From Candidatus Zixiibacteriota bacterium (GTDB taxonomy: Bacteria; Zixibacteria; MSB-5A5; GN15; JAAZOE01): 34,103 bases of DNA. Shown piece by piece: positions 19,556 to 25,982 of this stretch. Numbering within the stretch: the first letter of the stretch is position 1; each line of letters begins with the position of its first letter. Below the pieces are notes generated by a model. That model saw nothing but the letters and a program-made list of their open reading frames with translations. It ran no database searches and had not been told where the DNA came from. Location: NCBI GenBank assembly GCA_030668485.1, contig DAOUTW010000047.1, forward strand, positions 1 to 34,103, read 5' to 3'. The translations under genes and the position numbers were made by a program.

Positions 19556-20806
19556 ATGAAAATGTATCGGATAGTTGTATGCGGCCTGATCTGCCTGGCG
19601 GTTATGGCAATCGGCGCCGAGGAAATTCTGGCCGGTGACAAACTGTCATTTGACGGCCAAGTTCGACTGCGGAATGAATACGATTTGAAATCGACCGATG
19701 CCTTCCGGCATTCCGAGGTATTCCATGATTTGCGTACCAGGATCGGGCTGAAATTTGAACCTACCGACGAAACCATGGTTTACATCCAGTTGCAGGATTC
19801 CCGTCGTCTTGGCGATCCCTCATCAGGAGAGCTCACTTCGACCAACAATGTCGACCTTCATCAGGTTTACTTTGAAATCAGTGATGCCGTCTTTGAAGGG
19901 GTGACGATCAAGGCGGGACGGTTTGAGTTGAATTACGGCAATCAGCGGATGTTCGGCTCGGTCGGCTGGCATAATGCCGGGCGAAGCTGGGAGGGCGGGC
20001 TGCTTTCCTATCGCAAAGAGCAGTTCCGTTTTGATTTTTTCAACCTGCACAAAATGGAGATCAACGACGAAGACTACAACCGCGACTTCGATATTTTCGG
20101 TCTTTATGGAAAATTCCCCAAACTGCAGTTTGACATGTTTGCCTTCTACGAATCGAATGCCGACACCAATTTCTTTGTCCAGGAGCAATTGAAGCGATTC
20201 AATATCGGCGGTTATTATCACCGAAAGCATGAGAATATCGATTTCAACCTCCAGGCGGTTTTCCAATTCGGTGAAAAGCCTCGTGACTCGTTACCCGATG
20301 TCGTGATTCAGGATATTTCCGCCTTCATGTTTGCCACCGAAGCGGGATATAATTTCGAAGGAAAATGCAAAGCCCGTATCGCCGCCGGATTCGATTATTC
20401 TTCAGGCGACGACGGCAAGGATTCGACCAAATACGAAGCGTATACCAACGCCTATTACACCGGTCATAAATTTCGGGGATACATGGATAAATTCATTCCC
20501 TCAGAATCGTATGGATTGGTCGATATCATGCTGCGCGGTAAATTCAGCCCGGCCAAAAAGTGGACAGCCGGCGCCGATTTCCATTATTTCAAGGCGGCTG
20601 AGGACTATACCAGCCTGGCCGACGACTCGACTCAAACCAGCGATATCGGAATCGAGCTTGATTTTACGGTCGCTAGCAAATCAATCAAGGGTGCAACGGT
20701 TACCGGCGGATTCTCGGTATTCTTTGCCGATGAGCACTATTCTCCTTACGGCGATGACCGCAAGGTTGGGACCTGGGCATACCTGATGACCACGGTGAAT
20801 TTTTAA
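19556..20806 (+). CDS. Outer-membrane beta-barrel, alginate-export/porin-like
   Basis: A 416-residue exported protein with a signal peptide (MKMYRIVVCGLICLAVMAIG, then AEEILAG, cleavage probably after LAG). The mature part is a run of amphipathic strands with alternating aromatic residues, for example VRLRNEYDL, LRTRIGLKFEPTDE, VYIQLQDSRR, IKAGRFELNYGNQRMFGSVGWHNAGRSWEGG and a final strand ending in Phe (TVNF), the usual C-terminal signal for outer-membrane barrels. The RFELNYGNQR...GW...GRSWEG region is the mark of the alginate-export/porin-like domain. The substrate is unknown. The ATG at 19556 follows GGCGAGG; a second ATG two codons on (19562) cannot be excluded. It ends at a perfect palindromic hairpin. 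Confidence 0.85.
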   Translation: MKMYRIVVCGLICLAVMAIGAEEILAGDKLSFDGQVRLRNEYDLKSTDAFRHSEVFHDLRTRIGLKFEPTDETMVYIQLQDSRRLGDPSSGELTSTNNVDLHQVYFEISDAVFEGVTIKAGRFELNYGNQRMFGSVGWHNAGRSWEGGLLSYRKEQFRFDFFNLHKMEINDEDYNRDFDIFGLYGKFPKLQFDMFAFYESNADTNFFVQEQLKRFNIGGYYHRKHENIDFNLQAVFQFGEKPRDSLPDVVIQDISAFMFATEAGYNFEGKCKARIAAGFDYSSGDDGKDSTKYEAYTNAYYTGHKFRGYMDKFIPSESYGLVDIMLRGKFSPAKKWTAGADFHYFKAAEDYTSLADDSTQTSDIGIELDFTVASKSIKGATVTGGFSVFFADEHYSPYGDDRKVGTWAYLMTTVNF

Positions 20807-20823
20807 TACAAACGCAGGTGTCA

Positions 20824-20848
20824 ATCGGGAGCCATAATGGCTCCCGAT
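20824..20848 (+). terminator. Palindromic hairpin after the porin gene
   Basis: Two perfect 12-base arms, starting ATCGGGAGCC and ending GGCTCCCGAT, are separated by one base, which gives a stem of about ten pairs and a short loop. The following bases are AT-rich but not a pure T-run. It lies 17 bases after the stop codon, so it is probably the terminator. Confidence 0.65.
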
Positions 20849-20860
20849 CTATATTTATAC

Positions 20861-20889
20861 TTGCAAAGGCGCAACCGGCCGGCTATTTT
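20861..20889 (+). promoter_or_regulatory. Promoter for the LiaF-like gene
   Basis: TTGCAA (20861-20866) is followed after 17 bases by TATTTT (20884-20889). Transcription would begin near 20896, about 25 bases before the proposed ATT start and just ahead of the GGAGG site. Confidence 0.45.
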
Positions 20890-20920
20890 TTCGTACCTAT
20901 CATAAACGGAGGTTTTAATT

Positions 20921-21484
20921 ATTACTAACACTCAATCAAGAAATATATTCGGGTTGGTCCTGGTTATCGCAGGGCTGCTCCTGTTGCTGAACAACCTAGA
21001 TGTCGAAATTTTCAGTCTTGGCTGGCCCCTACTGATAATCGCCGCCGGTGTTTATCTGATCTATCGCTCTGTCCGTAAAAGCTCCGGGCAGGATTCCGCT
21101 TTCAGCGAATTCAGGATTTTGGGTGACTCCTCTTACAACGATTTATCCGGTGAAATCGACGGGACCTGTATCGACCACATTATCGGCGACACGAATCTGA
21201 ACCTCAGCGCAGTGAGTCTCAAGCCGGGAATCAACCATCTCAAGATATCTCATTTTATCGGCGATATCGACATTATCGTTCCCGATCATATGGCTGTTTC
21301 CGTTCGTGGCTCATCGGTCCTCGGGGATTTGGTGGTATTGAACCGGATGCGTGACGGTTTGTTCACCTCGGCCGAGGAAAAAACCGGCAGTTATGAGACG
21401 GCGGAGCGGAAACTGGTAATCAACTGCAGCGCTTTTATCGGCGATATCAAGGTCAGATCAATCGGGGCAGCCGACGGAAATTAG
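20921..21484 (+). CDS. LiaF-like membrane protein (DUF5668-type), probable ATT start
   Basis: A 187-residue protein. The N-terminal part has two membrane helices (about residues 12-25 and 33-48) in the pattern of the LiaF/DUF5668 family: RNIFGLVLVIAGLLLLLNNL, then WPLLIIAAGVYLIY. The C-terminal part is a beta-helix-like LiaF C-terminal domain with three repeats of the phrase GD-strand, such as IIGDTNLNLS, FIGDIDIIVP and FIGDIKVRS. LiaF proteins regulate cell-envelope stress responses; no LiaRS kinase pair is present here. The usual start codons fail: TTG 20954 has no ribosome-binding site and would cut the conserved opening. ATT at 20921-20923 has GGAGG eight bases upstream and restores it, so I place the start there. 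Confidence 0.75.
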   Translation: MTNTQSRNIFGLVLVIAGLLLLLNNLDVEIFSLGWPLLIIAAGVYLIYRSVRKSSGQDSAFSEFRILGDSSYNDLSGEIDGTCIDHIIGDTNLNLSAVSLKPGINHLKISHFIGDIDIIVPDHMAVSVRGSSVLGDLVVLNRMRDGLFTSAEEKTGSYETAERKLVINCSAFIGDIKVRSIGAADGN

Positions 21485-21692
21485 ATTTTCCGGAGAGATT
21501 TCCCTTGAAAACCTGATACCCTGAGTTTTCGTGAGTGAATCGATTTAATCATCGGCATATCGCCCGGTGTCCATTTTATGCCCAAAACCATCCAATCATA
21601 TATTCTAATCTTTAACTTTATGGGAGATGTTTCCGACATTAAAGAATAGAGGTTTAAATATAAGATCCTTTAGGATGGTCGAGGAATACTTT

Positions 21693-23963
21693 ATGAAGCA
21701 AATACTATTATCCGTCACAATTATTTTGTGTCTGGCGACAGTGGGCACCCTGTCAGTCAATTCGGCTTATGACCACCGGATGCAAAACCGCGTTACCGAT
21801 ATTCCGGTCGGCCCGGATAATTATCTTCGGGACAGAATTTCCGATGACAAAAATATTATGCCCGATTACTATCCAAAAGCGGCACTCAGGCAGGATTCTA
21901 TTCTGGAATATATATCAAGCAGCCTCTGGCTCGGGGTTCAGGATATACTGGTCGATAACGATTTTGCTTACTGCGCTTTTATAAATGGCCTGGTCATCTT
22001 TGATGTTTCGGATTCAAGTCTACCGGTTATGATCTCCGAACAATATATCAACGGGGGAGCCAGAGAAGTTTTCAAGCTCGGCTCACTGCTCTACCTTGCC
22101 GGCGAACAGGGGCTTACCATAATCGATGTAACTCTGCCCGGCAACCCGGCGATTGTTGGCGAGCGCCCGGTTACCAACGGTATCAACGGCCTGTTTGTCA
22201 GAGACGGTCTTGCCTGCGCCATAACATCCAACGACATGACCGATTTTATCGTCTTCGACGTATCTGTCCCATCAGCCCCCGATTCTCTGGGGAGTTTTAA
22301 CACACCCGGTTTGCCGTGGGATATTTTCGTCGTGAATGACCTCGCTTATGTCGCGGATGATTTTAATGGATTGTCGATTATCGATATCAGCAATCCCGCA
22401 GATCCGCAATTGTTTGACAGTCTGAATATTCCGGGGATATCAACCTCCGTCATCGTTAACGACAGCCTGGCCTTTGTGGTCGGCGACAGTTTCTGGGTTG
22501 TGAATATAGACCTCTCCCCGCCTGAGGTTGTTGGCTCGCTTCCATTTGAAATTATTCCCGGTGCGGATTGTATCTCTCTGGATATTACCCATGAAGACAG
22601 CCTGGTATATGTCAATTACATGGAATTTTTCACGCAGTTCGATGCTCACCTGGAGATAATAAACGTTGCCGATCCCTCCAATCCGGTGCGGGTCGGTCTT
22701 CCCGATCTGAACCCGACCGGACTTTTTGTGGCAAATAGTCTGGCCTATACCATCTACGGTTTTCCCTTCTATATCGAATCGGTCGACCGTCGGAGAGGCC
22801 TTGAGATATTCGATGTAAATGATCTGCTATGCCTGCCGCCCAATTGTCCGGCCGACTCCAATCCGGTTGGTTCCTTCGGGTTCCCGTTTCGGATTCGCGA
22901 TGTTGATGTTGTCGGTGATTATGCCTACGTTGTCTGCGACAGTTGCGGCCTTTTCATAATGGATATCAGCGATCCGGCCAATCCGGTCGCATCTGGAAGA
23001 TTTAGTGATCTTTCGGGAAGCATGTCGGCCGTGAGTGTCAGTGGCGACCTGGCCTGTATAACTTATCATAACGGCGGCGATCATCTGGTTACTATCGATG
23101 TCGGTAATCCGGCTGATCCGGTTTTCCTCGACAGTATCGAAACGCCGGGATTCGCTTATGAAGTCTGCGTCCGGAATACGGTCGCTTATGTGACCGACGG
23201 TTCTCCTCATCTGACCACTTTCGACATAACCGATCCGGCCGACCCGTTCATGCTCGACAGCATCACTGTTTCAGGGCACGGTTATGGTATCGTCGTTCAG
23301 GACAGCCTGGCTTATATTGCCGATTATTTCAAAGGCCTGACAATTATAAATGTCGCCGACCCTACTGATATCTCATTTGTAAGTTATTCTCCTGAGGCAT
23401 GGGAAGCACGGGATATTTTTGTATTGGACGATTTCGCATACCTGACCGAAGCCGACTATGGGATGCACATTGTCGATATAAGCAACCCTTATGCACCGGC
23501 CATGCGTGGTGACTACAGCAATGCCGGTACCAATCTTGGGGTCAACGTTCAGGATGGCAGAGCTTATGTAGCGGTTGAACGGTTGGGACTTCATCTGGTG
23601 GACGTTACCGACCCGGACAATCCGGTTCTGCTCGATATCTATGATACTCCGGGATTCGCCGGAGCCTTATCAGCCGGCGGCGGGATGGTATATCTGGCCG
23701 ATTACTTCTCATTGATGATGCTACGAGATAACGGATTTCCACCGGTATTAACCTGCGGAGATGCTAACGCCGATGGGATGGTCAATGTTGGTGATGCCGT
23801 TTATCTTATCAGTTATGTCTTCCGCGGCGGCGAGCCTCCGATTCCGGACGTTTGTACCGGGGACGTCAATGCCGATGGTTTGACCAATGTCGGCGATGCC
23901 GTTTATGTTATCAGTTATGTCTTCCGGCACGGCGCTCCGATGCTGGAAGGATGCTGCGATTAG
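21693..23963 (+). CDS. Secreted LVIVD-repeat beta-propeller with C-terminal dockerin-like domain
   Basis: A 756-residue exported protein. A signal peptide (MKQILLSVTIILCLATVGTL, then SVNSA) is followed by a long series of LVIVD-type repeats of about 42-45 residues, each with a phrase such as LVIFDVSDSSLPVMI, LTIIDVTLPGNPAIVG, LSIIDISNPADPQLFD or LHLVDVTDPDNPVLLD. These build one or two beta-propellers, probably for binding. The last about 69 residues are a dockerin type I-like pair: GDANADGMVNVGDAVYLISY and GDVNADGLTNVGDAVYVISY, two calcium-loop motifs each followed by a helix. The start at 21693 is chosen by the signal peptide and by GAGGA before it; the frame extends 22 codons upstream without a better site. 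The stop codon forms the first bases of an 84-bp tandem repeat. Confidence 0.88.
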   Translation: MKQILLSVTIILCLATVGTLSVNSAYDHRMQNRVTDIPVGPDNYLRDRISDDKNIMPDYYPKAALRQDSILEYISSSLWLGVQDILVDNDFAYCAFINGLVIFDVSDSSLPVMISEQYINGGAREVFKLGSLLYLAGEQGLTIIDVTLPGNPAIVGERPVTNGINGLFVRDGLACAITSNDMTDFIVFDVSVPSAPDSLGSFNTPGLPWDIFVVNDLAYVADDFNGLSIIDISNPADPQLFDSLNIPGISTSVIVNDSLAFVVGDSFWVVNIDLSPPEVVGSLPFEIIPGADCISLDITHEDSLVYVNYMEFFTQFDAHLEIINVADPSNPVRVGLPDLNPTGLFVANSLAYTIYGFPFYIESVDRRRGLEIFDVNDLLCLPPNCPADSNPVGSFGFPFRIRDVDVVGDYAYVVCDSCGLFIMDISDPANPVASGRFSDLSGSMSAVSVSGDLACITYHNGGDHLVTIDVGNPADPVFLDSIETPGFAYEVCVRNTVAYVTDGSPHLTTFDITDPADPFMLDSITVSGHGYGIVVQDSLAYIADYFKGLTIINVADPTDISFVSYSPEAWEARDIFVLDDFAYLTEADYGMHIVDISNPYAPAMRGDYSNAGTNLGVNVQDGRAYVAVERLGLHLVDVTDPDNPVLLDIYDTPGFAGALSAGGGMVYLADYFSLMMLRDNGFPPVLTCGDANADGMVNVGDAVYLISYVFRGGEPPIPDVCTGDVNADGLTNVGDAVYVISYVFRHGAPMLEGCCD

Positions 23964-24138
23964 TGGCAGGGGCCACCCTTTGGCTGTCGCGTAGATGATC
24001 TGATTTCAAGTGCTGAAGTTTATATTGTGCACGGCATATGTCCGCAGTGGCAGGGGCCACATTTTGGCTGTCGCGCAGATGATCTGATTTCAAGTGCTGA
24101 AGTTTATATTGTGCACGGCATATGTCCACAGTGGCAGA
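23962..24138. repeat. 84-bp tandem repeat, two copies plus a 9-base start of a third
   Basis: Copy 1 (23962-24045) and copy 2 (24046-24129) differ at only four positions, and 24130-24138 begins a third copy. Each unit starts AGTGGCAGGGGCCAC, a five-base stem with a four-base loop. The first copy starts inside the TAG stop of the preceding gene. A diverged relative lies at 26007-26135. Confidence 0.9.
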
Positions 24139-24140
24139 AT

Positions 24141-24173
24141 ATTTTCCCATCCTAAATGGTGGTCCCCCCGTCA
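24141..24173. repeat. Dispersed 33-bp repeat end, copy 1
   Basis: This stretch, starting ATTTTCCCATCCTAAATGG, matches 26103-26135 at 29 of 33 positions. It closes the repeat element that follows the LVIVD/dockerin gene. Confidence 0.75.
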
Positions 24174-24192
24174 TTAATAGCATTGGTTCTCC

Positions 24193-24263: not shown

Positions 24264-25982
24264 ATGTGGAATACCTTAAAATATGATCTTATTATTGCCG
24301 TAACGGTAATATCATTTTTTATGTTGTCGACGCCGCTTTTGCCGGATGCATCTTCTGGCATTGATGCGGCGTTTCCCAAAATCGATTTCGATCTTGCTGA
24401 ATATTTAATAAGTCGCACCACTAACGAATTTATTCCGGTTGAATTAAAAATAGTCGGGGGATTATCGGCTGAAGAGTTAATGCAAGAAATGAATGAAGCC
24501 GGCGAAACACTCGATCAGAAGCGCCGGTATGGTCTGCACCGACTGCGTGAAGTGGCGGCGTCTACCCAGATTCATGTTTTAGATTACTTACGCGGATTAG
24601 TGAAACAGGGTTCGGTCAGAAATATCCAGAATCACTGGCTAACCAACACCATATCCGTCGAAGTCACGGCCTCAACAATCAAATCCGCTGTTGCACATGA
24701 GGATATTATACAGGCTTTTCGATACCCTGATCCAATTATGTTAGCACCTGATGATCCTGTAGAATCTCAACTAAAAAGGCCAATAACGGTCGGGGGCGTG
24801 GAGGAGAATCTTCGTTTTATCGGCGCGGATGAGGCCTGGCATATGGGATATACAGGTTTGGGCCGTATTGTATGTATATCTGATATAGATGGTGTTGACG
24901 GCAATCATCCCGCGCTTTATGCCAACTGGAAAGGACACGATGGAGACACATCGGCGGCATGGCATGGATATGGGCCGGGGTTCCCTATTACATCCGGTTA
25001 TCACGGAACGCACCTGATGGGTATCATGGTTGGCCATAACGACGTAACAGGTGACACAATCGGAGTGGCGCCCGACGCCAAATGGATCGGAGGCCCAGGC
25101 TGGCGAGTTTTTGAATGGGCTGCCGATCCGGACGGCGATCCCCATACAACCGATGATATGCCTGATGTGATCAACTTGTGCTGGGGATCTCGGGGTGATT
25201 GTGACGAATATATGTGGGATATATTCGATATGACCGAGGCATTGGGAATTGTCAATGTGTTCGCCGCCGGTAATGGGGGCCCAGATTATATGTCCTTAAT
25301 CTGGCCCGGTGGCCGGGCCGATGATTCCCTGACGAATTTCGCCATTGGCTCGGTTGACCACAGATCGGGTATGCGGTGGTTTTCATCCAGCCGGGGACCG
25401 TCGGGATGCGATTCCATCTCCATCAAACCCAACCTATGTGCCCCTGGGGCATATATATGGTCATCTATTCCGGGTAACGGATACAGGGTTCATGGTGGAA
25501 CCTCAATGGCCGCGCCCCATGTGGCTGGAGCGGTGGCAATACTCAGGCAGGTTGACCCCAACGCTACGGCTCGTGAGATCAAGGAAGCTCTCATTGCCGG
25601 AGCTATTCCATACGGCGAGCCTTGTCCCAATAATGATTGCGGCTGGGGCATCCTAAATATACCCAACTCTATCAGATATTTATCACGCATCAGGTTAATA
25701 CCCGAATCCCTGGTCCTGGAACAGAATTATCCAAATCCTTTCAATCCCTATACAACCATTACATTTGCTGTGCCGACTGCATCGCAGGTAACCCTTGACA
25801 TCTATAATGTTTTGGGACAACGAGTGAAAAGAATAGTCAACGGGAACCTCCCGTCAGGTTATCATCAGATCAGATGGGATGGTAAGGATTCATTCGGTGA
25901 TAATGTTGCCAGCGGCATCTATTTTTATCAAATTCGCGCGGCAGATCGCACAAAAACGAAAAATATGATCCTCCTGAAATAG
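24264..25982 (+). CDS. Secreted subtilisin-like (S8) serine protease with T9SS-type sorting domain
   Basis: A 572-residue exported protease. A signal peptide (about residues 1-29) is followed by an I9-like propeptide region (about 55-155), then the S8 catalytic domain: an aspartate region SDIDGVDGNHP (206-216), HGTHLMG with the catalytic His near 248, the oxyanion AAGNGG with Asn near 337, and GGTSMAAPHVAG with Ser near 414. The common DTG around the aspartate is altered to DIDG, so D207 or D209 is the catalytic residue. The last about 85 residues start LEQNYPNPFNPYTTITF and end in a FlgD-like Ig fold (SGIYFYQIRAAD...), the type A sorting domain used by type IX secretion. GGAGGTG supports the ATG. 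Confidence 0.93.
   Translation: MWNTLKYDLIIAVTVISFFMLSTPLLPDASSGIDAAFPKIDFDLAEYLISRTTNEFIPVELKIVGGLSAEELMQEMNEAGETLDQKRRYGLHRLREVAASTQIHVLDYLRGLVKQGSVRNIQNHWLTNTISVEVTASTIKSAVAHEDIIQAFRYPDPIMLAPDDPVESQLKRPITVGGVEENLRFIGADEAWHMGYTGLGRIVCISDIDGVDGNHPALYANWKGHDGDTSAAWHGYGPGFPITSGYHGTHLMGIMVGHNDVTGDTIGVAPDAKWIGGPGWRVFEWAADPDGDPHTTDDMPDVINLCWGSRGDCDEYMWDIFDMTEALGIVNVFAAGNGGPDYMSLIWPGGRADDSLTNFAIGSVDHRSGMRWFSSSRGPSGCDSISIKPNLCAPGAYIWSSIPGNGYRVHGGTSMAAPHVAGAVAILRQVDPNATAREIKEALIAGAIPYGEPCPNNDCGWGILNIPNSIRYLSRIRLIPESLVLEQNYPNPFNPYTTITFAVPTASQVTLDIYNVLGQRVKRIVNGNLPSGYHQIRWDGKDSFGDNVASGIYFYQIRAADRTKTKNMILLK

Follow-up and report, generated by a model that had tools for sequence, protein, structure and literature searches.

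Introduction

AUU start codons are read by the initiator tRNA with a mismatch at the third base and are discriminated by IF3. An AUU start in E. coli pcnB was reportedly described by Binns and Masters in 2002 and, to go by their title, it limits translation. The discrimination of AUU-type starts by IF3 is treated in the available parts of two papers (PMC5622118, PMC13009471), the first of which counts a single AUG-to-AUU switch among 61,358 in 36 triplets of close genomes. As far as its available text goes, the second shows experimentally that S. aureus cvfC1 is initiated at AUU with an extended Shine-Dalgarno sequence, gives about 10% of AUG reporter expression for the AUU of cvfC1 and for the AUA starts in RPMI medium, and cites the unusual start of E. 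coli infC as serving autoregulation (PMC13009471).

AUU starts outside infC are already known, and the liaF case described here would add a further one. A sequence-only reading of this DNA had proposed the ATT start and had called such starts very rare and known for infC; pcnB and cvfC1 show that they are not limited to infC.

The start region of liaF

The window, that is the whole stretch of DNA analysed (34,103 nucleotides of a Candidatus Zixiibacteriota draft genome), carries these features in and around the gene, hereafter liaF:

19556-20806 (+): porin-like gene (Alginate_exp), conserved upstream neighbour (Pfam; order kept in loci L040 and L041)
20824-20848 (+): terminator-like hairpin of 11 pairs, 3' of the porin gene (pattern scan)
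20908-20912 (+): GGAGG, Shine-Dalgarno core (read in the sequence; also in 12 of 18 homologues with 20 upstream bases)
20918-20920 (+): ATT, first of a tandem pair, alternative start (spacing 5)
20921-20923 (+): ATT, proposed start codon (spacing 8; ATG at the corresponding place, give or take a few codons, in 28 of 29 homologue loci, the other being unreadable)
20921-21484 (+): LiaF-like gene, 187 codons plus stop, with an N-terminal membrane segment (PF18917/PF22570) and LiaF-like_C (PF09922)
20954-20956 (+): TTG, first standard in-frame start codon, rejected as start (without Shine-Dalgarno sequence, drops an invariant Gly)

The sequence-only reading had placed GGAGG eight bases before ATT 20921 and had found no in-frame ATG, GTG or TTG in reach before TTG 20954, and both statements are borne out. 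The core GGAGG at 20908-20912 (+) is followed by TTTTAATT and then by ATT 20921-20923, a spacing of eight bases, and the liaF frame runs TAA(20903) ACG GAG GTT TTA ATT(20918) ATT(20921) ACT AAC ACT CAA TCA AGA AAT ATA TTC GGG TTG(20954), with no in-frame ATG, GTG or TTG between the stop TAA 20903 and TTG 20954. What that reading missed is the second in-frame ATT at 20918, directly 5' of ATT 20921 and five bases from GGAGG. Its case against TTG 20954 also holds: no GGAG, GAGG or AGGA occurs in the 20 bases before this codon, and a start there would remove part of the conserved N-terminus, the invariant Gly just before TTG being lost.

The arrangement of GGAGG and ATT is above chance, because inside the predicted genes of a genome sample (see below) GGAGG lies 5-9 bases before 1,036 of 215,961 in-frame codons (0.48%), versus 44 of the 520 ATGs nearest the coding edge (8.5%) in open frames of at least 150 codons from the same sample. 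In these 44 of 520 open frames the distance from GGAGG to ATG is spread over 5 (13 cases), 6 (9), 7 (8), 8 (10) and 9 bases (4), and therefore spacing alone cannot choose between ATT 20918 and ATT 20921. Ten residues precede the invariant Gly when counted from ATT 20921 and 11 when counted from ATT 20918, compared with 5-14 in 19 homologues (mode 8; 7 in L015), and on these counts ATT 20921 would be slightly favoured over ATT 20918.

The 11 codons leading from ATT 20921 to TTG 20954 have a slightly negative score (-2.1) on a home-made hexamer scale, so that composition alone is no proof that they are coding. A consensus scan gave no sigma-70-type promoter upstream of liaF, and folding of the RNA from 20896 to 20975 gave nothing unusual in structure (z -0.61). 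The putative terminator hairpin suggests that liaF may be transcribed separately from the porin gene; two terminator-like sites lie in 20780-21640 (shuffles: mean 0.8, sd 1.2), an excess that is not significant. A search for 16S in the genome found none, hence the anti-Shine-Dalgarno end is not readable.

Identity and neighbourhood of the gene

The product is LiaF-like, as the sequence-only reading had recognised, with three Pfam families above their cut-offs. These are PF09922, the LiaF-like C-terminal domain (residues 68-179; 80.1 bits, cut-off 29; E 1.4e-22) and, for the N-terminal LiaI/LiaF-type transmembrane region, PF22570 (33.8 bits, cut-off 27) and PF18917 (29.6 bits, cut-off 27). The reading frame runs uninterrupted to the stop at 21482-21484. 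The gene order carbamoyltransferase(-)/porin(+)/liaF(+) is common to the window and to L040 and L041, from two family members; their carbamoyltransferases are 80% and 86% identical to that of the window at the protein level and their porins 54% and 59%, and the gap from the porin gene to the liaF start measures 115 bases in L040, 111 in L041 and 114 in the window. Because the order is kept with these identities and similar gaps, the window liaF is, on this comparison, a positional orthologue.

In the Lia system of Bacillus, liaF lies beside a two-component system, in a liaIH-liaGFSR arrangement. The three nearest genes of the window put to Pfam encode a carbamoyltransferase, a porin-like protein and an LVIVD/dockerin protein, with no two-component protein among them; for this reason 'LiaF-like' is a statement about domains only and, judged by its nearest neighbours, the locus is not a Lia system.

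Other features of the surroundings may be recorded here. The protein that combines LVIVD repeats with a type I dockerin domain (21627-23963) is followed by a subtilisin-like protease (24264-25982), recognised by eye, whose C-terminal NPFNP-type tail resembles, again by eye, the tails found on surface or sorted proteins. A tandem repeat (23962-24137; period 84, 2.1 copies, 95% matches) sits right at the end of the LVIVD/dockerin gene; its period equals 28 codons and the minus-strand open reading frame 23911-24183 thus reads a repeated peptide. Elsewhere in the genome (G000 C21:17989-18141), a 61-residue open frame resembles the LiaF-like protein over the membrane part alone (E 1.2e-5).

Start codons of the homologues

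A search of 60 genomes, that of the window included, gave matches in 54 of them and 29 loci besides the window (L010-L038). The aligned set consists of the 19 loci (L010-L027, L033) for which the listed match extended to the N-terminus. In all 19 an ATG occupies the equivalent place and the invariant Gly is preceded by 5-14 residues, against 10 in the window. Of the ten other loci, for which the listed match was C-terminal only, nine show by eye an ATG a short distance ahead of the same membrane segment; in L032 a stop 37 codons upstream closes the frame and the start is unreadable. In total, ATG stands at the equivalent place, within a few codons of the window ATT, in 28 of the 29 loci. The alignment of N-termini that the sequence-only reading had proposed as a check thus places the homologue starts there, L032 apart, and not at the downstream TTG.

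Within the family, the five members with a full homologue (38-45% identity) likewise carry ATG. ATT is seen in no readable homologue and the trait is therefore private to one assembly and unconserved. In the upstream nucleotide alignment ATT does not fall exactly on the ATG of the relatives; the N-terminal tail varies in length, and that of the window is one codon longer than in the two nearest homologues (G002, G003). Three homologues begin M-T (L010, L020, L035), two of them M-T-N (L020, L035). GGAGG lies 4-10 bases before ATG in 12 of the 18 homologues that have 20 upstream bases (L014 starts 6 bases before its own ATG, at a contig end), and because of this the strong Shine-Dalgarno sequence is probably ancestral and not a compensation for AUU. 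All 11 columns that are invariant in the 19 homologues are kept in the window, as are 16 of the 17 others in which at least 80% of the homologues agree. The frame is therefore not decayed, and apart from the start codon nothing in its sequence suggests a pseudogene.

The source is a single draft genome in 139 contigs. Scanning the genome collection with the window protein alone gave 76 stretches that matched the pattern, none confirmed as a relative, and scanning it with a three-sequence alignment gave two loci, those of G002 and G003, both with ATG. Neither the collection scans nor the search for relatives returned a second assembly of the species or genus, in a collection that may omit near-identical records. 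Literature searches combining LiaF, AUU and start codon found nothing, and the only match for Zixibacteria with start codon concerns, in its available part, antibiotic resistance genes in soil.

Rarity of the arrangement in the genome

The genome sample, 834,103 bases out of about 4.51 Mb, consisted of the window and 40 stretches of 20 kb each; a home-made coding score predicted 621 genes in it. In 323 of these genes no standard start was accompanied by a listed Shine-Dalgarno motif, and Shine-Dalgarno sequences are therefore far from universal here. The sample was scanned for non-standard codons that precede the first standard start and have a Shine-Dalgarno motif 5-9 bases in front of them, a rough procedure that passes over any gene with a Shine-Dalgarno sequence at its first standard start. 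A loose filter let through 138 codon positions, of which many lay in short false frames or closely preceded a standard start. Across this 0.83-Mb sample and its 621 genes, the ATT pair of the window is the only instance of GGAGG-preceded single-base neighbours of ATG without a nearby standard start.

Two other candidates were set aside: an AAG with a five-/six-base motif (L073), because ATG follows 18 bases on, and an ATC preceded by AGGAG (L084), which lies in a short low-scoring frame. With a four-base motif, the candidates include an ATA in L088, which precedes the first standard start by 36 bases, and ATC codons in L102 (30 bases) and L109 (120 bases).

Start codons of infC in the group

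In the same genome infC has a single match, without any ATG, GTG or TTG from the upstream stop to the conserved KKNEIRVN stretch; an ATA lies there seven bases after GGAGG. At this locus (L039 1468-1482; G000 C95) the fitting ATA overlaps the TAA stop of the upstream gene, which we take to be thrS. The infC survey covered 30 loci including this one, of which 25 were readable (L043, L048, L049, L051 and L055 gave no motif match), besides 8 further matches without a locus. Every readable locus has an in-frame ATA (23) or ATC (2: L052, L062) 4-8 bases after GGAGG and 23-26 codons before the GEQ motif. In 24 of them there is no standard start in frame between the upstream stop and the ATA or ATC, the exception being L058, with TTG, ATG and GTG further upstream in the open frame. 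Since GGAGG with ATA or ATC fits all 25 readable loci, near-AUG starts are probably used in infC across this group.

Discussion

We consider it fairly probable that liaF makes use of a genuine AUU start, acquired by a lineage-specific change from AUG, and we infer that the base is truly T in the organism and that the gene is translated. Because the rate of AUG-to-AUU switches is so low, a single-base error is a serious rival: the organism would have ATG at 20921 and the draft assembly would carry a wrong or strain-specific T, through a consensus error or a minority strain variant. We hold this to be rather unlikely. Nowhere else in the 0.83-Mb sample has a gene lost its start in this way, with GGAGG in place and ATG absent nearby; errors at start codons are thus uncommon here, and liaF is without other visible lesion. 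On the other side stand the origin of the sequence (one draft genome, 139 contigs), the ATG of 28 out of 29 homologue loci with ATT read in none, the great rarity of genuine switches in the available text of PMC5622118, and the homologue N-termini, since M-T (three) and M-T-N (two) are what ATG at 20921 would give.

The base could also be real and yet mark a recent loss of the start codon, the allele being poorly expressed or dying and AUU having no selected role. Such a loss would fit a change private to the lineage and the low yield expected of AUU; with the frame intact, all 11 invariant columns kept and both the Shine-Dalgarno sequence and its spacing preserved, we judge it quite improbable. 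A downstream start at TTG 20954 or ATA 20945 seems to us very improbable, as neither codon has GGAG, GAGG or AGGA in the 20 bases before it, a start at TTG would cost the protein its invariant Gly and one at ATA would leave 2 residues ahead of this Gly versus 5-14 in the 19 homologues, even if TTG is the first standard codon, the one that callers limited to standard starts report, and the 11 codons ahead of it score slightly negatively. A frameshift from another frame was rejected, no ATG being found in any frame between the terminator hairpin and ATT. The weights that we give to these four readings are judgements and not computed values.

If the AUU start is genuine, liaF would be translated from AUU, most likely at 20921 and possibly at the tandem AUU 20918, read by the ordinary initiator fMet-tRNA with the help of the strong GGAGG. 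The ancestral start would have been AUG, altered by one third-position change in this lineage. The expected effect is a constitutively weak translation, with a yield of perhaps a tenth of that from AUG by analogy with S. aureus, and such weak initiation may be sensitive to the level or activity of IF3, as we infer for liaF from infC, sigR and published work. It is tempting to go further and speculate, though we find it unlikely, that an envelope-associated LiaF-like gene has recently come under IF3-gauged translation through an AUG-to-AUU change, the tandem AUUs acting as two weak start sites.

On that speculative reading liaF would be an AUU-start gene other than infC from beyond the well-studied phyla, with its dosage limited by initiation. 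If the AUU start is confirmed, an uncultured phylum supplies one more such gene besides infC, and the product of liaF is one that is kept scarce at the initiation step. Gene callers limited to ATG, GTG and TTG would then place the protein start 11 codons late and cut off the first conserved residues of the membrane segment.

How liaF relates to the described cases can be set out gene by gene. infC (AUU/AUC/AUA) shares with liaF a near-AUG start that differs at the third base and follows a strong Shine-Dalgarno sequence. The unusual infC start is common to 25 of 25 readable loci, including that of the same genome, whereas the liaF ATT is private to this genome; and the E. coli infC start serves autoregulation, whereas no feedback loop is implied for liaF. 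pcnB resembles liaF in having AUU in a chromosomal gene other than infC, and differs in that it has been studied experimentally and has a different product, liaF being known from its sequence alone.

According to the available text on S. aureus, cvfC1 (AUU) and ccpN (AUA) have, like liaF, a non-AUG start with a strong Shine-Dalgarno sequence; unlike liaF, the S. aureus starts were mapped by Ribo-Ret and that of cvfC1 is conserved among staphylococci (PMC13009471). Streptomyces sigR, in the part of the work available, starts at GTC and comes with genetic proof of repression by IF3, whereas the case for liaF is drawn from DNA sequence; the two are alike in that each shows a non-canonical start in a chromosomal gene that was first assigned to another codon (PMC5472188).
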